From Gemmatimonadota bacterium (lineage in GTDB: Bacteria; Gemmatimonadota; Gemmatimonadetes; Gemmatimonadales; Gemmatimonadaceae): 47,562 nucleotides of DNA. Positions within the stretch are counted from its first letter, which is position 1; the number at the start of each line of letters is the position of its first letter. The position numbers and the translations under genes are program-made. Of this stretch, positions 28,635 to 32,716 are shown piece by piece. Location: the NCBI GenBank assembly GCA_016194585.1, contig JACQBG010000025.1:1-47562 (forward strand), given 5' to 3'. The notes beneath the pieces are model-generated. The model ran no database searches. It worked only from the letters and a program-made list of their open reading frames with translations, and had not been told where the DNA came from.

Positions 28635-29399
28635 GTGCTGTACATCTGCATCCCCTCGTACAACGAAGCCCCGACGGTCGGGGTGCTCCTGTGGCGCATC
28701 CGCAAGGTGTTCCAGGAGTACTCGCGCGAGTACGAGGTGCTGGTGTACGACGACGCCAGCACGGACGGCACGCGCGAGGTCCTCGAGCCGTACGCGAAGG
28801 TGATGCCGCTGACGGTGCTCGGCCGCCGGGAACAGGTCGGGTATGCGCGCGCCGTCGACGCCCTCTTCCGGGCGACGAGCGAGCGGACGCGCTACCCGCG
28901 CCGCGACGCCCTCGTGCTCATGCAGGCCGACTTCACCGACCAGCCGGAACACCTGCCCGAGCTCGTCAAGCGCTTCGAGGGAGGCGCCGACGTCGTCGTC
29001 GCCGACCGCGTGATGGGCACCGGCGCGCCGGAGGCGGTACGGAAGCTCGGGCGCTCGGCGCGCTGGCTCCGCGCGCTGCTCCCGATCCGCAAGTTCGTGA
29101 CGGTGCCCGGCGTGCAGGACCCGTTCGGCGGCTTCCGCCTGTTGCGGGTGACCGTCGTGCGCGACCTGCTGAAGGAGTGTGGCGAGCACGCGTTCAGCGA
29201 CGCCCCGGTATGGGCCGCGAACGCCGAGTTGCTCCGTGCCGCGATGCGGTTGGCGCGGCGCGTCGAGACGCTGCCGCTCGAGGCGCGCTGGGACGTGCGC
29301 CCGCGTGAGAGCCGCGTCCGGCCGTGGCCCGATACCGTCGATCTCGTCAAGCGAGGCTGGGCGGCCCGCTCGCGCCGTTCGCCGAGCTCGGCGAACTGA
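28635..29399 (+). CDS. Family 2 glycosyltransferase (polyprenol-phosphate sugar type)
   Basis: 254 aa. GT-A fold: LYICIPSYNEAPTVGVLL start, nucleotide-sugar site VYDDASTDGT (Asp39-Asp40) and a metal site in LMQADFTDQPEHL (Asp99) resembling the dolichol-phosphate mannose synthase group. No membrane helix follows, so it is a soluble or peripheral enzyme. GTG 28635 is chosen because the fold begins there and AGAGG lies five bases upstream; ATG 28551 would add an unstructured 28 residues. It is the first gene of a three-gene operon with a DUF3108 protein and a DHS-like protein. Sugar and acceptor are unknown. Confidence 0.85.
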   Translation: MLYICIPSYNEAPTVGVLLWRIRKVFQEYSREYEVLVYDDASTDGTREVLEPYAKVMPLTVLGRREQVGYARAVDALFRATSERTRYPRRDALVLMQADFTDQPEHLPELVKRFEGGADVVVADRVMGTGAPEAVRKLGRSARWLRALLPIRKFVTVPGVQDPFGGFRLLRVTVVRDLLKECGEHAFSDAPVWAANAELLRAAMRLARRVETLPLEARWDVRPRESRVRPWPDTVDLVKRGWAARSRRSPSSAN

Positions 29400-29403
29400 G
29401 CCG

Positions 29404-30174
29404 GTGGCCGTGAGGGCCCGGGCTCGGTGCCGCGCGGCGCTCGCCGGCGCGTTCGCCCTCGTCGCCGCTTCGACGGCCGGCGCGCAGCACCCGGCCAGCG
29501 TGCCGTGGGCCACGGGCGAACGGCTCACCTACTCCGTGCGGTTCAACGGACTCTCCGTGGGCGACGCCGAGATGCGCGTCGTCGGGCAGGATACCGTGCG
29601 CGGACGCCGCACGTGGAAACTCGAGTTCGGCATCACCGGGGGCATCCCGTTCTTCCACGTGAACGACAGCTACGAGAGCTGGCTCGACATCGAGACGCTC
29701 TCGTCGCTGCGCTTCATCCAGCGCATCAACGAGGGGGGCTACCACCCCACCCGCACCTTCGAGATCCACCCCGAGCGCGGCTTCTTCCAGCAGAACGACA
29801 AGCCCGAGGAGCCCACCGTCGCCCAGCCCCTCGACGACGCGTCGTTCTTCTTCTTCCTGCGCACGATCCCGCTCGAGGTCGGGCGCACGTACGAGTTCAA
29901 CCGCTACTTCAACCCCAAGGCCAACCCGGTCATCATCCGCGTGTTGCGCCGCGAGCACATCCGCGTGGCGGCCGGGGAGTTCGACGCGATCGTCATCCAG
30001 CCGATCATCAAGACGAGCGGGCTCTTCTCCGACAACGGGATGGCCGAGCTCTGGCTCTCCGACGATCCGCGCCGCATCCTCCTGCAGCTGAAGAGCAAGT
30101 TCTCGATCGTGAACCTGAGCCTGGGCCTCAAGCAGATGACGCTCCCGCCGCTCTCCACCGACCCCGCCAAGTGA
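29404..30174 (+). CDS. Exported DUF3108-domain protein
   Basis: 256 aa. Signal peptide with Arg-rich head and cleavage near AGAQ. The mature part matches DUF3108: GERLTYSVRFNGLSVGDAEM, GRRTWKLEFGITG, DSYESWLDIETLSSLRF, and a closing LWLSDDPRRILLQLKSK beta region. Such proteins are periplasmic beta-barrel-like lipid-binding candidates of unknown role. The start is GTG 29404 or 29410, four to ten bases after the glycosyltransferase stop. Its own stop overlaps the next gene by four bases. Pairing with a glycosyltransferase hints at envelope work, as an inference only. Confidence 0.85.
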   Translation: MAVRARARCRAALAGAFALVAASTAGAQHPASVPWATGERLTYSVRFNGLSVGDAEMRVVGQDTVRGRRTWKLEFGITGGIPFFHVNDSYESWLDIETLSSLRFIQRINEGGYHPTRTFEIHPERGFFQQNDKPEEPTVAQPLDDASFFFFLRTIPLEVGRTYEFNRYFNPKANPVIIRVLRREHIRVAAGEFDAIVIQPIIKTSGLFSDNGMAELWLSDDPRRILLQLKSKFSIVNLSLGLKQMTLPPLSTDPAK

Positions 30175-31130
30175 GCGACGCGCGCGAGACCGACCTCGCC
30201 CGCGTGCGCACCGTGCCGATCGCCGCGCGCCCCAACAAGGTGCGCGCCGAGGAGTTCTGCTCGCCGCCCGGCGACGACCGGTCGTTCGCCGCCTTCCTGC
30301 GCGCGCTCCCCGACGTGCTCGTCGCCCGCGACTTCCGCGCCGTGGTCGAGGCGATCGCCGCGGCGGCGCGCGCGAAGAAGGGCGTCATCGTGATGCTGGG
30401 CGGGCACATCGTGAAGACCGGACTCGCGCCGGTGCTCATCGACCTCATGCGGCGCGGCGTCATCACCCACCTCGCGATGAACGGCTCGGCGGCGATCCAC
30501 GACTACGAGATCGCGCGCTTCGGCGGCACGAGCGAGGACGTCGCCGCCGGACTCCGCGACGGCACGTTCGGCATGGCCGAGGAGACGGGACGCGAGCTCA
30601 ACGAGGCGTTCGTGCGCGGCAGCGCCGCCGGCCAGGGGATGGGCGAAGCCGTGGCGGTCGCCCTCGAGGGCGCGGCGACGCTCGCCCATCCCGAGCTGTC
30701 GGTGGTCCTCAACGCGGCGCGACTCGGCATCCCGGTGACGGTGCACGCCGCCCTCGGCGCCGAGATCATCCACCAGCACCCCGCGGCGAACGGCGCCGCC
30801 ATCGGCGACACGAGCCACCGCGACTTCCGCCGGCTGGCGGCGAGCATCGAACGGCTCGACGAGGGCGGCGTCGCGCTCAACTGCGGCAGCGCCGTGATCA
30901 TGCCCGAGGTGTTCCTCAAGGCGCTCACCGTGGCCCGCAACGTGACCGGCGGCGCGCCGCGAAGCTTCACGACGGTGGACCTCGACATGCTGCGCCACTA
31001 CCGCCCGCGCGTGAACGTCGTGCAGCGACCGACGATGGACAGCGGCAAAGGGTACGAGATCACCGGACACCACGAGATCATGGTGCCGCTGCTGGCGTGG
31101 GCGGTGGTGGAACGGCTCGAGCGGGACTGA
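30171..31130 (+). CDS. Deoxyhypusine-synthase-like protein
   Basis: 319 aa, cytoplasmic. Sequence style (KKGVIVMLGGHIVKTGLAPVLIDLMRRGVITHLAMNGSAAIHDYEIA, then TSEDVAAGLRDGTFGMAEETG and VHAALGAEIIHQHP) fits the NAD-binding deoxyhypusine synthase-like fold as found in bacteria. Bacteria lack eIF5A, so if related the enzyme may make homospermidine or act on something else. The lysine-bearing SWGKI-type site of true DHS is not evident. Start GTG overlaps the DUF3108 stop. It is last in the operon and is followed by a palindrome and a hairpin. Family call is from memory of similar proteins and is moderate. Confidence 0.6.
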   Translation: MSDARETDLARVRTVPIAARPNKVRAEEFCSPPGDDRSFAAFLRALPDVLVARDFRAVVEAIAAAARAKKGVIVMLGGHIVKTGLAPVLIDLMRRGVITHLAMNGSAAIHDYEIARFGGTSEDVAAGLRDGTFGMAEETGRELNEAFVRGSAAGQGMGEAVAVALEGAATLAHPELSVVLNAARLGIPVTVHAALGAEIIHQHPAANGAAIGDTSHRDFRRLAASIERLDEGGVALNCGSAVIMPEVFLKALTVARNVTGGAPRSFTTVDLDMLRHYRPRVNVVQRPTMDSGKGYEITGHHEIMVPLLAWAVVERLERD

Positions 31131-31493: not shown

Positions 31494-31807
31494 AGCGGAA
31501 TCCTCGACGGGGTCTGCGGTCCGTACGGAAGTAAGGGAGCCGCTGTTTCAGCGCAACCCGAGCGTGAGCGTGCGGTGGGGTGGCGGCGGCCGGCGGGTCT
31601 CGACCCGATACGCGCCGGACCACCTTCGAGGGGGGTCGATACCCGCGCCGACACACTCTCTACAGTCACCTGCCGCCTGGTTCTAGAGTAACCTTCTAAC
31701 TTGATTTTGATGGTTACTATGGCCTAGACCTACTATATACCCCCTCCTAGATTCCGCTCCATGGCCGGCTCCCCGGCCACGTGCCTCTCCTCTCTCGCGA
31801 CACCGGA
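31494..31807. promoter_or_regulatory. Intergenic control region upstream of lipA
   Basis: 314 bases between the divergent small membrane gene and lipA. I see no gene. The right half is AT-rich for this genome. An inverted repeat AGTAACC (31687-31693) and GGTTACT (31712-31718) with an 18-base spacer could be an operator. TTGATT (31701-31706), TATATA (31734-31739) and TAGATT (31748-31753) are candidate promoter hexamers. An out-of-frame ATG at 31761 opens about 56 codons overlapping lipA; I do not call it a gene. Confidence 0.4.
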
Positions 31808-32716
31808 ATGGCCGAGCACTTCTATCAGATTATGGGGCGGCACCGCGCCGAACCCCTCCCCGAGCGCAAGCCGAGTTGGCTCAAGGTCAAGGCGCCGGGA
31901 GGGCACGGCTACCTCGGCCTCAAAGGGCTGATGCGCGAGCTCGACCTCCACACCGTGTGCGAGGAAGCCCACTGCCCGAACGTCGGCGAGTGCTGGGACC
32001 ACGGCACGGCGACGTTCATGATCCTCGGCGACGTGTGCACGCGGAACTGCGCGTACTGCGCCGTCGCGCACGGCCGGCCGCCGAAGTTCGACCCGGCGGA
32101 GCCGTCGCGCGTGGCCGAGGCGGCCGAGAAGATGCAGCTCCGCCACCTCGTCATCACGAGCGTCGACCGCGACGATCTCCCCGATTTCGGCGCGTGGGCC
32201 TTCGCCGAGGTGATCCGTCAGGTGCACGAGCGGGTGCCGGGGTGCTCGGTGGAGGTGCTCGTGCCGGACTTCCAGGGCAACGAGGACGCGATCCGCTCGG
32301 TGCTGGAGGCGCGTCCGGAGATCTACAACCACAACACCGAGACGGTGCCGCGCCTGTACAAGAAGGCGCGCCCCGGGGGCCGCTACGAGCGCGTGAAGGA
32401 GATCTTCCGCTTCGCCAAGCGCACCGCGCCCGACATCCCCACGAAGACGGGGATCATCGTCGGGATGGGCGAGACGAACGAGGAAGTGCTGGAGACGATG
32501 CGCGACCTGCGCACGGTCGACGTCGACATCCTCACCATCGGCCAGTACCTGCGGCCGAGCAACGACCACATCGCGCTCGACCGGTACGTGACGCCGGACG
32601 AGTTCCGGATGTTCTACGAGGCCGGGATGGCGATGGGGTTCAAGCACGTCGAGAGCGCGCCGCTCGTCCGGAGCAGCTACCACGCGTGGGAGCAGGTGCA
32701 GGCGGCGGGGGTCTGA
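31808..32716 (+). CDS. lipA: Lipoyl synthase (radical SAM)
   Basis: 302 aa from ATG 31808. It inserts two sulfurs into octanoyl groups bound to GcvH or E2. Auxiliary cluster cysteines C51, C56, C62 (CEEAHCPNVGEC) and radical-SAM cluster C77, C81, C84 (CTRNCAYC) are all present, as is the C-terminal RSSY motif whose serine completes the auxiliary cluster. Length fits the family. An in-frame GTG at 31781 would add nine residues. Followed after 185 bases by the pyruvate dehydrogenase operon, whose E2 is a substrate; the two octanoyltransferases that feed it are at 18860 and 40029. Confidence 0.96.
   Translation: MAEHFYQIMGRHRAEPLPERKPSWLKVKAPGGHGYLGLKGLMRELDLHTVCEEAHCPNVGECWDHGTATFMILGDVCTRNCAYCAVAHGRPPKFDPAEPSRVAEAAEKMQLRHLVITSVDRDDLPDFGAWAFAEVIRQVHERVPGCSVEVLVPDFQGNEDAIRSVLEARPEIYNHNTETVPRLYKKARPGGRYERVKEIFRFAKRTAPDIPTKTGIIVGMGETNEEVLETMRDLRTVDVDILTIGQYLRPSNDHIALDRYVTPDEFRMFYEAGMAMGFKHVESAPLVRSSYHAWEQVQAAGV

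Follow-up and report, generated by a model that had tools for sequence, protein, structure and literature searches.

The window analysed here is a stretch of 47,562 nucleotides (contig JACQBG010000025.1, contig C42 of our set) from a Gemmatimonadota genome of 3.34 Mb in 50 contigs, which is 98.27% complete. On its plus strand lie three tightly packed genes, encoding a GT2 glycosyltransferase of the dolichol/undecaprenyl-phosphate sugar synthase type (28635–29399), a DUF3108 protein (29404–30174) and a GSU2086-family protein (30171–31130), called the third protein below. All three frames are open throughout, each with GTG as the putative start codon, which for the DUF3108 gene may lie at 29404 or 29410. 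Four bases (29400–29403) separate the GT2 and DUF3108 genes, and the DUF3108 gene overlaps the third gene by the four bases GTGA (30171–30174), confirming the packing described in an earlier, sequence-only reading of the window. The trio is a real gene unit.

The glycosyltransferase matches PF00535 in Pfam at 5e-24 (85.6 bits against a cut-off of 23.3), its best solved relative is the DPM synthase 5mlz (4.6e-12), and by its relatives it is DPM/ArnC-like; no membrane domain was seen in it. The DDxSxD motif is present. The DxD metal motif of GT2 polyprenyl-phosphate sugar synthases is replaced by QxD, in which the second aspartate is kept and both Q97 and D99 are near-invariant in 51 sequences. 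The DUF3108 protein (PF11306, 6.2e-31, 108.3 bits against a gathering cut-off of 26) starts with a hydrophobic segment, a predicted export signal. Its AlphaFold2 (AF2) model (pLDDT 90.4) has a predicted beta-barrel fold like that of lipid carriers, and Foldseek matched it to 6ntr (DUF1849, 5.2e-6), which we take to be EipB, to the YmcC-like 3fzx, and to LprG and LolA. The modelled fold thus resembles those of proteins for periplasmic lipid handling, in agreement with the earlier description of the protein as exported and of a lipid-binding type. Elsewhere in the same genome there is a further DUF3108 match, weaker at 54 bits, within an open frame of 945 residues (G000:C5:26720-27079).

The third protein matches the NCBIfam GSU2086 family, NF052581, over residues 7–310 (2.4e-121, 404.9 bits against a cut-off of 250). 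Its AF2 model, obtained from 46 sequences (pLDDT 89.2), has the predicted fold of deoxyhypusine synthase (DHS), shared with ornithine cyclodeaminase (OCD). Foldseek matched the model to DHS at 5.1e-8 and, among the PDB families listed, VIA gave Z scores of 20.8 to DHS 7cmc (rmsd 3.4 over 263 residues), 20.4 to AgrE 6lrf and 20.0 to ArgZ 6juy. The term "DHS-like" used in the sequence-only reading is borne out as a statement about the fold. A lysine, K250, is conserved in 46/46 relatives.

To examine conservation, we compared the best 80 of 526 confirmed places holding the third gene. Nearly all of these closest relatives are labelled Gemmatimonadota or one of its families, the exceptions being a few unlabelled metagenome-assembled genomes and one filed as Candidatus Kuenenia. 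Where the locus left room, the gene immediately preceding the third gene encodes DUF3108 in 74 of 78 cases (the misses being L044, L060, L066 and L079), and the order GT2–DUF3108 precedes it in 65 of 68; the three misses for this order (L044, L066, L079) have a GT2 gene and no DUF3108 match. On these counts, the arrangement of the trio is not due to chance. The same four-base overlap of the DUF3108 and third genes recurs in 38 of the 67 loci in which both ends were called. In 13 loci (12 found by script, L098 from the frame table) a single open frame covers both GT2 and DUF3108; all three of these fusions that were read have a hydrophobic stretch where the two parts meet. A DUF3108 tree of 38 tips included six fused ones, which do not form one group, with L052 standing apart, so that there were at least two fusion events. 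Two loci hold, in place of DUF3108, a GT2 with a charged, low-complexity tail of several hundred residues (L066:115-2346 and L079:5908-7962). Downstream of the trio lies a lipoyl synthase gene (31781–32716, plus strand; NF004019, 3.4e-124), the first of a lipA-pdhABC cluster. It is a neighbour only and stands outside the unit: lipA is found within 4.5 kb downstream in 59 of the 66 loci with room and is missing there in seven, and the trio is therefore not tied to lipA-pdh.

The trio was found in families f1–f6, f8 and f10 of the Gemmatimonadota. Of 200 genomes surveyed in the phylum, 86 have the third gene over the cut-off and 197 have DUF3108. Eleven fetched loci contain the GT2–DUF3108 pair without an adjacent third gene (L200, L201, L205, L207–L211, L213–L215), so the link with the third gene is not obligatory; in three of them (L209, L210, L211) the genome carries a relative of the third gene elsewhere. 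Since the pair occurs without the third gene, the more widespread core appears to be GT2–DUF3108, with the third gene as an addition. DUF3108 occurs without GT2 in L198, L199 and L202–L204. The GT2 genes of the deep-branching family f10 were found by a hidden Markov model search (L158, L159, L161).

The surroundings of the pair were read in 23 fetched loci that contain it, selected on two grounds, depth and lack of the third gene. Twelve of these loci have an MsbA relative (at least 40% identity) encoded upstream on the same strand (L158, L159, L161, L166, L167, L169, L207, L209, L210, L211, L213, L214), and in L168 one lies on the opposite strand. Two of the MsbA proteins, compared with NCBIfam TIGR02203, gave 5.6e-165 and 2e-164 (550 and 548 bits), under the cut-off of 602. 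In each of the four loci tested (L166, L167, L207, L209), a gene for a lipid A acyltransferase of the LpxL family (PF03279) stands between MsbA and GT2, and heptosyltransferase-family genes (PF01075) are found near the unit in both loci tested (L166, L167). In family f10, an ArnT-like gene and MsbA adjoin the unit, the ArnT-like protein of L158 scoring 6.9e-67, below its NCBIfam cut-off. In several families of the phylum, MsbA and LpxL-type genes precede the unit, which supports an envelope role, and the "envelope modification" pathway suggested earlier can be sharpened to lipopolysaccharide (LPS), in whose gene neighbourhood DUF3108 and its GT2 partner are now placed. A response regulator fused to a PglZ domain, presumably PorX-like, is encoded just upstream of MsbA in L167 (L167:1889-3493, tested with Pfam) and, by look only, in L166 (L166:15441-17009) and L207 (L207:529-2103).

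Outside the Gemmatimonadota, the third gene was seen only with heptose-type sugar genes or phage genes and never with GT2 and DUF3108. Conservation beyond close relatives, on which the sequence-only reading had staked the trio, thus holds within the phylum, while in other phyla only the third gene was seen, in other contexts. Two plasmids (L114, L115) encode matches to the third protein at 35–38% identity, both with heptose neighbours. On the Solidesulfovibrio plasmid the GSU2086 gene is flanked by an HldE-like fusion on one side and a GmhA-like SIS gene on the other, and on the Chloroflexota plasmid it is followed by an HldA-like kinase and a GmhA-like gene. A GmhA-like gene also follows the GSU2086 gene in L156 and L157, both from family f10. 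In a Geobacter study, GSU2086 itself lies between hldE (GSU2085) and gmhA (GSU2087), and the electrode-growth values of GSU2085, GSU2086 and GSU2087, -3.1, -3.2 and -3.7, are defects, which may include polar effects (PMC5585712). On the Solidesulfovibrio plasmid, three radical SAM genes (L115:11373-15881) come after the heptose-type run, beside pseudaminic-acid-type genes.

Two scans of viral contigs yielded 18 distinct contigs with GSU2086 relatives, several of them near-identical. In phage L188, the rfaE_dom_II (HldC-like), GSU2086 and rfaE_dom_I (HldA-like) genes overlap one another, with a dTDP-glucose-dehydratase-like gene next and UvsX-, SbcC- and SbcD-like phage genes upstream. Phage L175 carries HldE-, RmlA- and GDP-mannose-dehydratase-type genes with its GSU2086 gene, and the weakest relative (L176/L194) has HldE-like matches nearby. 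In L187 (L187:2346-4918) the GSU2086-family gene follows the terminase large-subunit gene after 2 bases, within the head-packaging module, and a terminase and a portal gene are present on the GSU2086-bearing contig L173. In the remaining viral contigs no heptose gene was recognised beside the GSU2086 gene with the probes used, and no relative was found in named phage records (two queries) or in PHROGs (five proteins).

NCBI labels ornithine cyclodeaminase of the ArgZ/AgrE/TIGR00300 type, which is related to the third protein, "nickel-pincer nucleotide-dependent". A literature search returned no paper joining (ornithine) cyclodeaminase with the nickel-pincer nucleotide (NPN). Following the label, we tested the genes for this cofactor for co-occurrence with the third gene, with presence thresholds of our own choice and genome lists copied by hand from the search results. 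The third gene was counted as present at E up to 1e-15 (89 genomes, namely the 86 over the cut-off and the fragments in G001, G066 and G146), OCD at E below 1e-20 (85 genomes; the weaker rows G027, G057, G159 and G177 were dropped as GSU2086 cross-hits), and LarC and LarA at E up to 0.001. LarC is found in 81 of 89 carriers of the third gene against 19 of 111 non-carriers (Fisher 1.9e-27). In genomes lacking both LarA and OCD, it is found in 12 of 15 with the third gene against 6 of 90 without (3.6e-9); where OCD is present and both the third gene and LarA are absent, the figure is 8 of 16 against the same 6 of 90. Shuffles within families never reached the observed concordance (0/20000), and those within genera reached it in 414/20000. 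In genus g3, all three species with the third gene have LarC and none of the three without it does. LarE follows LarC in 38 selected genomes except G105, which has LarE and no LarC match. The genome analysed here has LarC on contig C16 and LarE on C49. In G196, which has no OCD or LarA match, a larE-larB-larC run lies beside a nickel-transporter-like gene (larB and the transporter recognised by sequence look only). No match to Lar_N (PF09861) was found in the third protein or in this genome. Ten stretches of lar regions were fetched from six genomes and seven of them read by a gene caller; no GSU2086 gene was recognised by eye in these seven, on which no model search was made.

Two side observations concern the same cofactor. 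Six genomes with LarC have no LarA, OCD or GSU2086 match (G020, G050, G103, G130, G165, G183) and may hold further NPN clients. In genus g26 (G012, G030, G044, G141, G163), OCD is present in all five genomes, with no LarC and no LarE over the cut-off; two of the five also have GSU2086, and the OCD of G141 contains one in-frame TAG.

We tentatively propose, with a confidence that stays slightly below even, that the trio is an envelope glycosylation unit acting on LPS or lipid A, in which the third protein is a DHS-fold sugar-phosphate enzyme, possibly NPN-dependent. On the inner face of the inner membrane, the GT2 enzyme would add a sugar to a lipid carrier or to lipid A, and the exported DUF3108 protein would bind the lipid-linked product outside that membrane, the two presumably working closely enough to have fused more than once. 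The third protein, a proposed sugar-phosphate epimerase or isomerase, would supply the sugar by altering a heptose-type sugar phosphate in stereochemistry or in oxidation state, through redox-neutral hydride transfer that might use NPN rather than NAD. The data show how the genes are built, conserved and fused, the predicted fold, the LPS genes around the unit in relatives, the link to heptose genes elsewhere and the co-occurrence with LarC; substrate, reaction, cofactor and the single shared pathway are what we infer here. Fold, neighbours and co-occurrence suggest that the third protein could be an NPN enzyme other than LarA, with sugar phosphates as its substrates. In a broader form, which we regard as doubtful but worth stating, the GSU2086 family would be a second, non-LarA NPN client, a nickel-using epimerase with the DHS fold that would convert heptose-type sugar phosphates, supply LPS in the Gemmatimonadota and also be carried by phages within runs of heptose-nucleotide genes.

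Several observations weigh against this proposal, beginning with the pairs that lack an adjacent third gene. No LPS genes flank the trio inside the window itself, and the first aspartate of the GT2 DxD motif is missing. This genome has 0 gmhA matches, its rfaE_dom_II gene is on another contig (C24), and no ADP-heptose pathway operon, with hldE and gmhA beside the third gene, was found in it; on these sequence matches, the lack of gmhA weakens a heptose-only reading for this genome. Four other GSU2086-positive genomes (G031, G101, G195, G011) have no rfaE_dom_II match. Five firm GSU2086-positive genomes lack both LarC and LarE (G044, G163, G038, G185, G149) and weaken a strict dependence on NPN; the proteins of these exceptions keep 50/50 invariant residues, save for S177C in L218 (G038). 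G114 and G011 have a LarA-family match, no LarC match and no LarE over the cut-off. Because both carry LarA, gaps in the assemblies may account for the absent lar genes; the G011 protein (L161) has five changes among the 50 invariant residues. The association with LarC may also partly reflect shared ancestry.

Alternatively, the third protein could fill the same envelope sugar role with a tightly bound NAD+, as in DHS, its co-occurrence with LarC being inherited or driven by OCD, and we consider this quite possible, if on balance doubtful. The titles of PDB entries for DHS and AgrE relatives point to bound NAD, the five firm genomes without LarC and LarE retain the active-site set, the concordance within genera is only modestly above that of shuffles, and OCD itself co-occurs with the third gene, 67 of the 85 OCD genomes also having GSU2086. 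However, the excess of LarC in carriers persists where OCD and LarA are both missing, G196 has its lar run with neither of them, and the contrast within genus g3 follows the third gene. Another explanation questions the unit itself: GT2–DUF3108 would be the functional pair and the third gene would merely ride in the operon while serving unrelated small-molecule metabolism. The eleven pairs without it, the near-universal presence of DUF3108 in a phylum where under half of the genomes have the third gene over the cut-off, and its different location in other phyla are consistent with such hitch-hiking, yet order and position are kept across f1–f6, f8 and f10, often down to the four-base overlap, and the partners of the third gene elsewhere are likewise sugar genes, which makes it improbable.

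We give very little credence to the third protein being a polyamine or hypusine enzyme, the polyamine role having been raised in the sequence-only reading, or an ornithine cyclodeaminase. The fold is shared (Z about 20), an HD-x-E region is common to the third protein and OCD, and there are weak scores to the OCD model TIGR00300 (22.5 bits) and to the best DHS model, PRK02301 (17 bits). With hhalign the third protein gave 92.6% against a 21-sequence OCD profile; single-sequence comparisons with DHS gave 1.7% and 7.3%, weak values that are not comparable with the profile figure. Both family scores are nevertheless far under their cut-offs (410.8 and 364 bits, respectively), and Pfam gave no PF01916 match at E up to 1. 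The SWGK motif, which carries the catalytic lysine of DHS, occurs in 0/46 relatives of the third protein and is seen in the PF01916 protein encoded elsewhere in this genome, whose family score (562 bits) is that of a homospermidine biosynthesis protein; a separate OCD gene is also present (445 bits). The missing motif, the family score and the separate homospermidine gene lead us to reject the polyamine role, as the score does for identity with OCD.

The GSU2086 family is a concrete, purifiable candidate for a non-LarA NPN protein, with a class of sugar substrates suggested by its neighbours. According to a 2024 paper, about 15% of surveyed genomes combine larB, larC and larE with a lack of larA, so that non-LarA NPN proteins are likely (PMC11796402). 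If the family is NPN-dependent, some of the genomes that make NPN without LarA would be accounted for, the hydride-transfer chemistry of nickel would reach beyond hydroxy acids to the sugar precursors of LPS, and a family so far unassigned, with members in bacteria, on plasmids and in phages, would gain a function.

Compared with known systems, the GT2 enzyme is similar in kind to DPM-type GT2 enzymes and to that of ArnC/ArnT lipid A modification; to our knowledge, DUF3108 and GSU2086-family partners are no part of the Arn pathway and distinguish the trio from it. The third protein is a full-length member of the GSU2086 family, whose name assigns no function, and it stands beside GT2 and DUF3108 here, whereas the plasmid members and the Geobacter namesake stand beside heptose genes. 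It resembles deoxyhypusine/homospermidine synthases (PF01916) in its predicted fold and differs from them in lacking the Pfam match and the SWGK motif. With ornithine cyclodeaminases of the ArgZ/AgrE/TIGR00300 type it has in common the fold, the HD-x-E region and the tracking of LarC, but it has sugar instead of amino-acid neighbours and is encoded by a separate gene in this genome. Finally, although it is without the Lar_N domain of the LarA lactate racemase superfamily, it would share with that superfamily the proposed NPN cofactor and a redox-neutral hydride chemistry.

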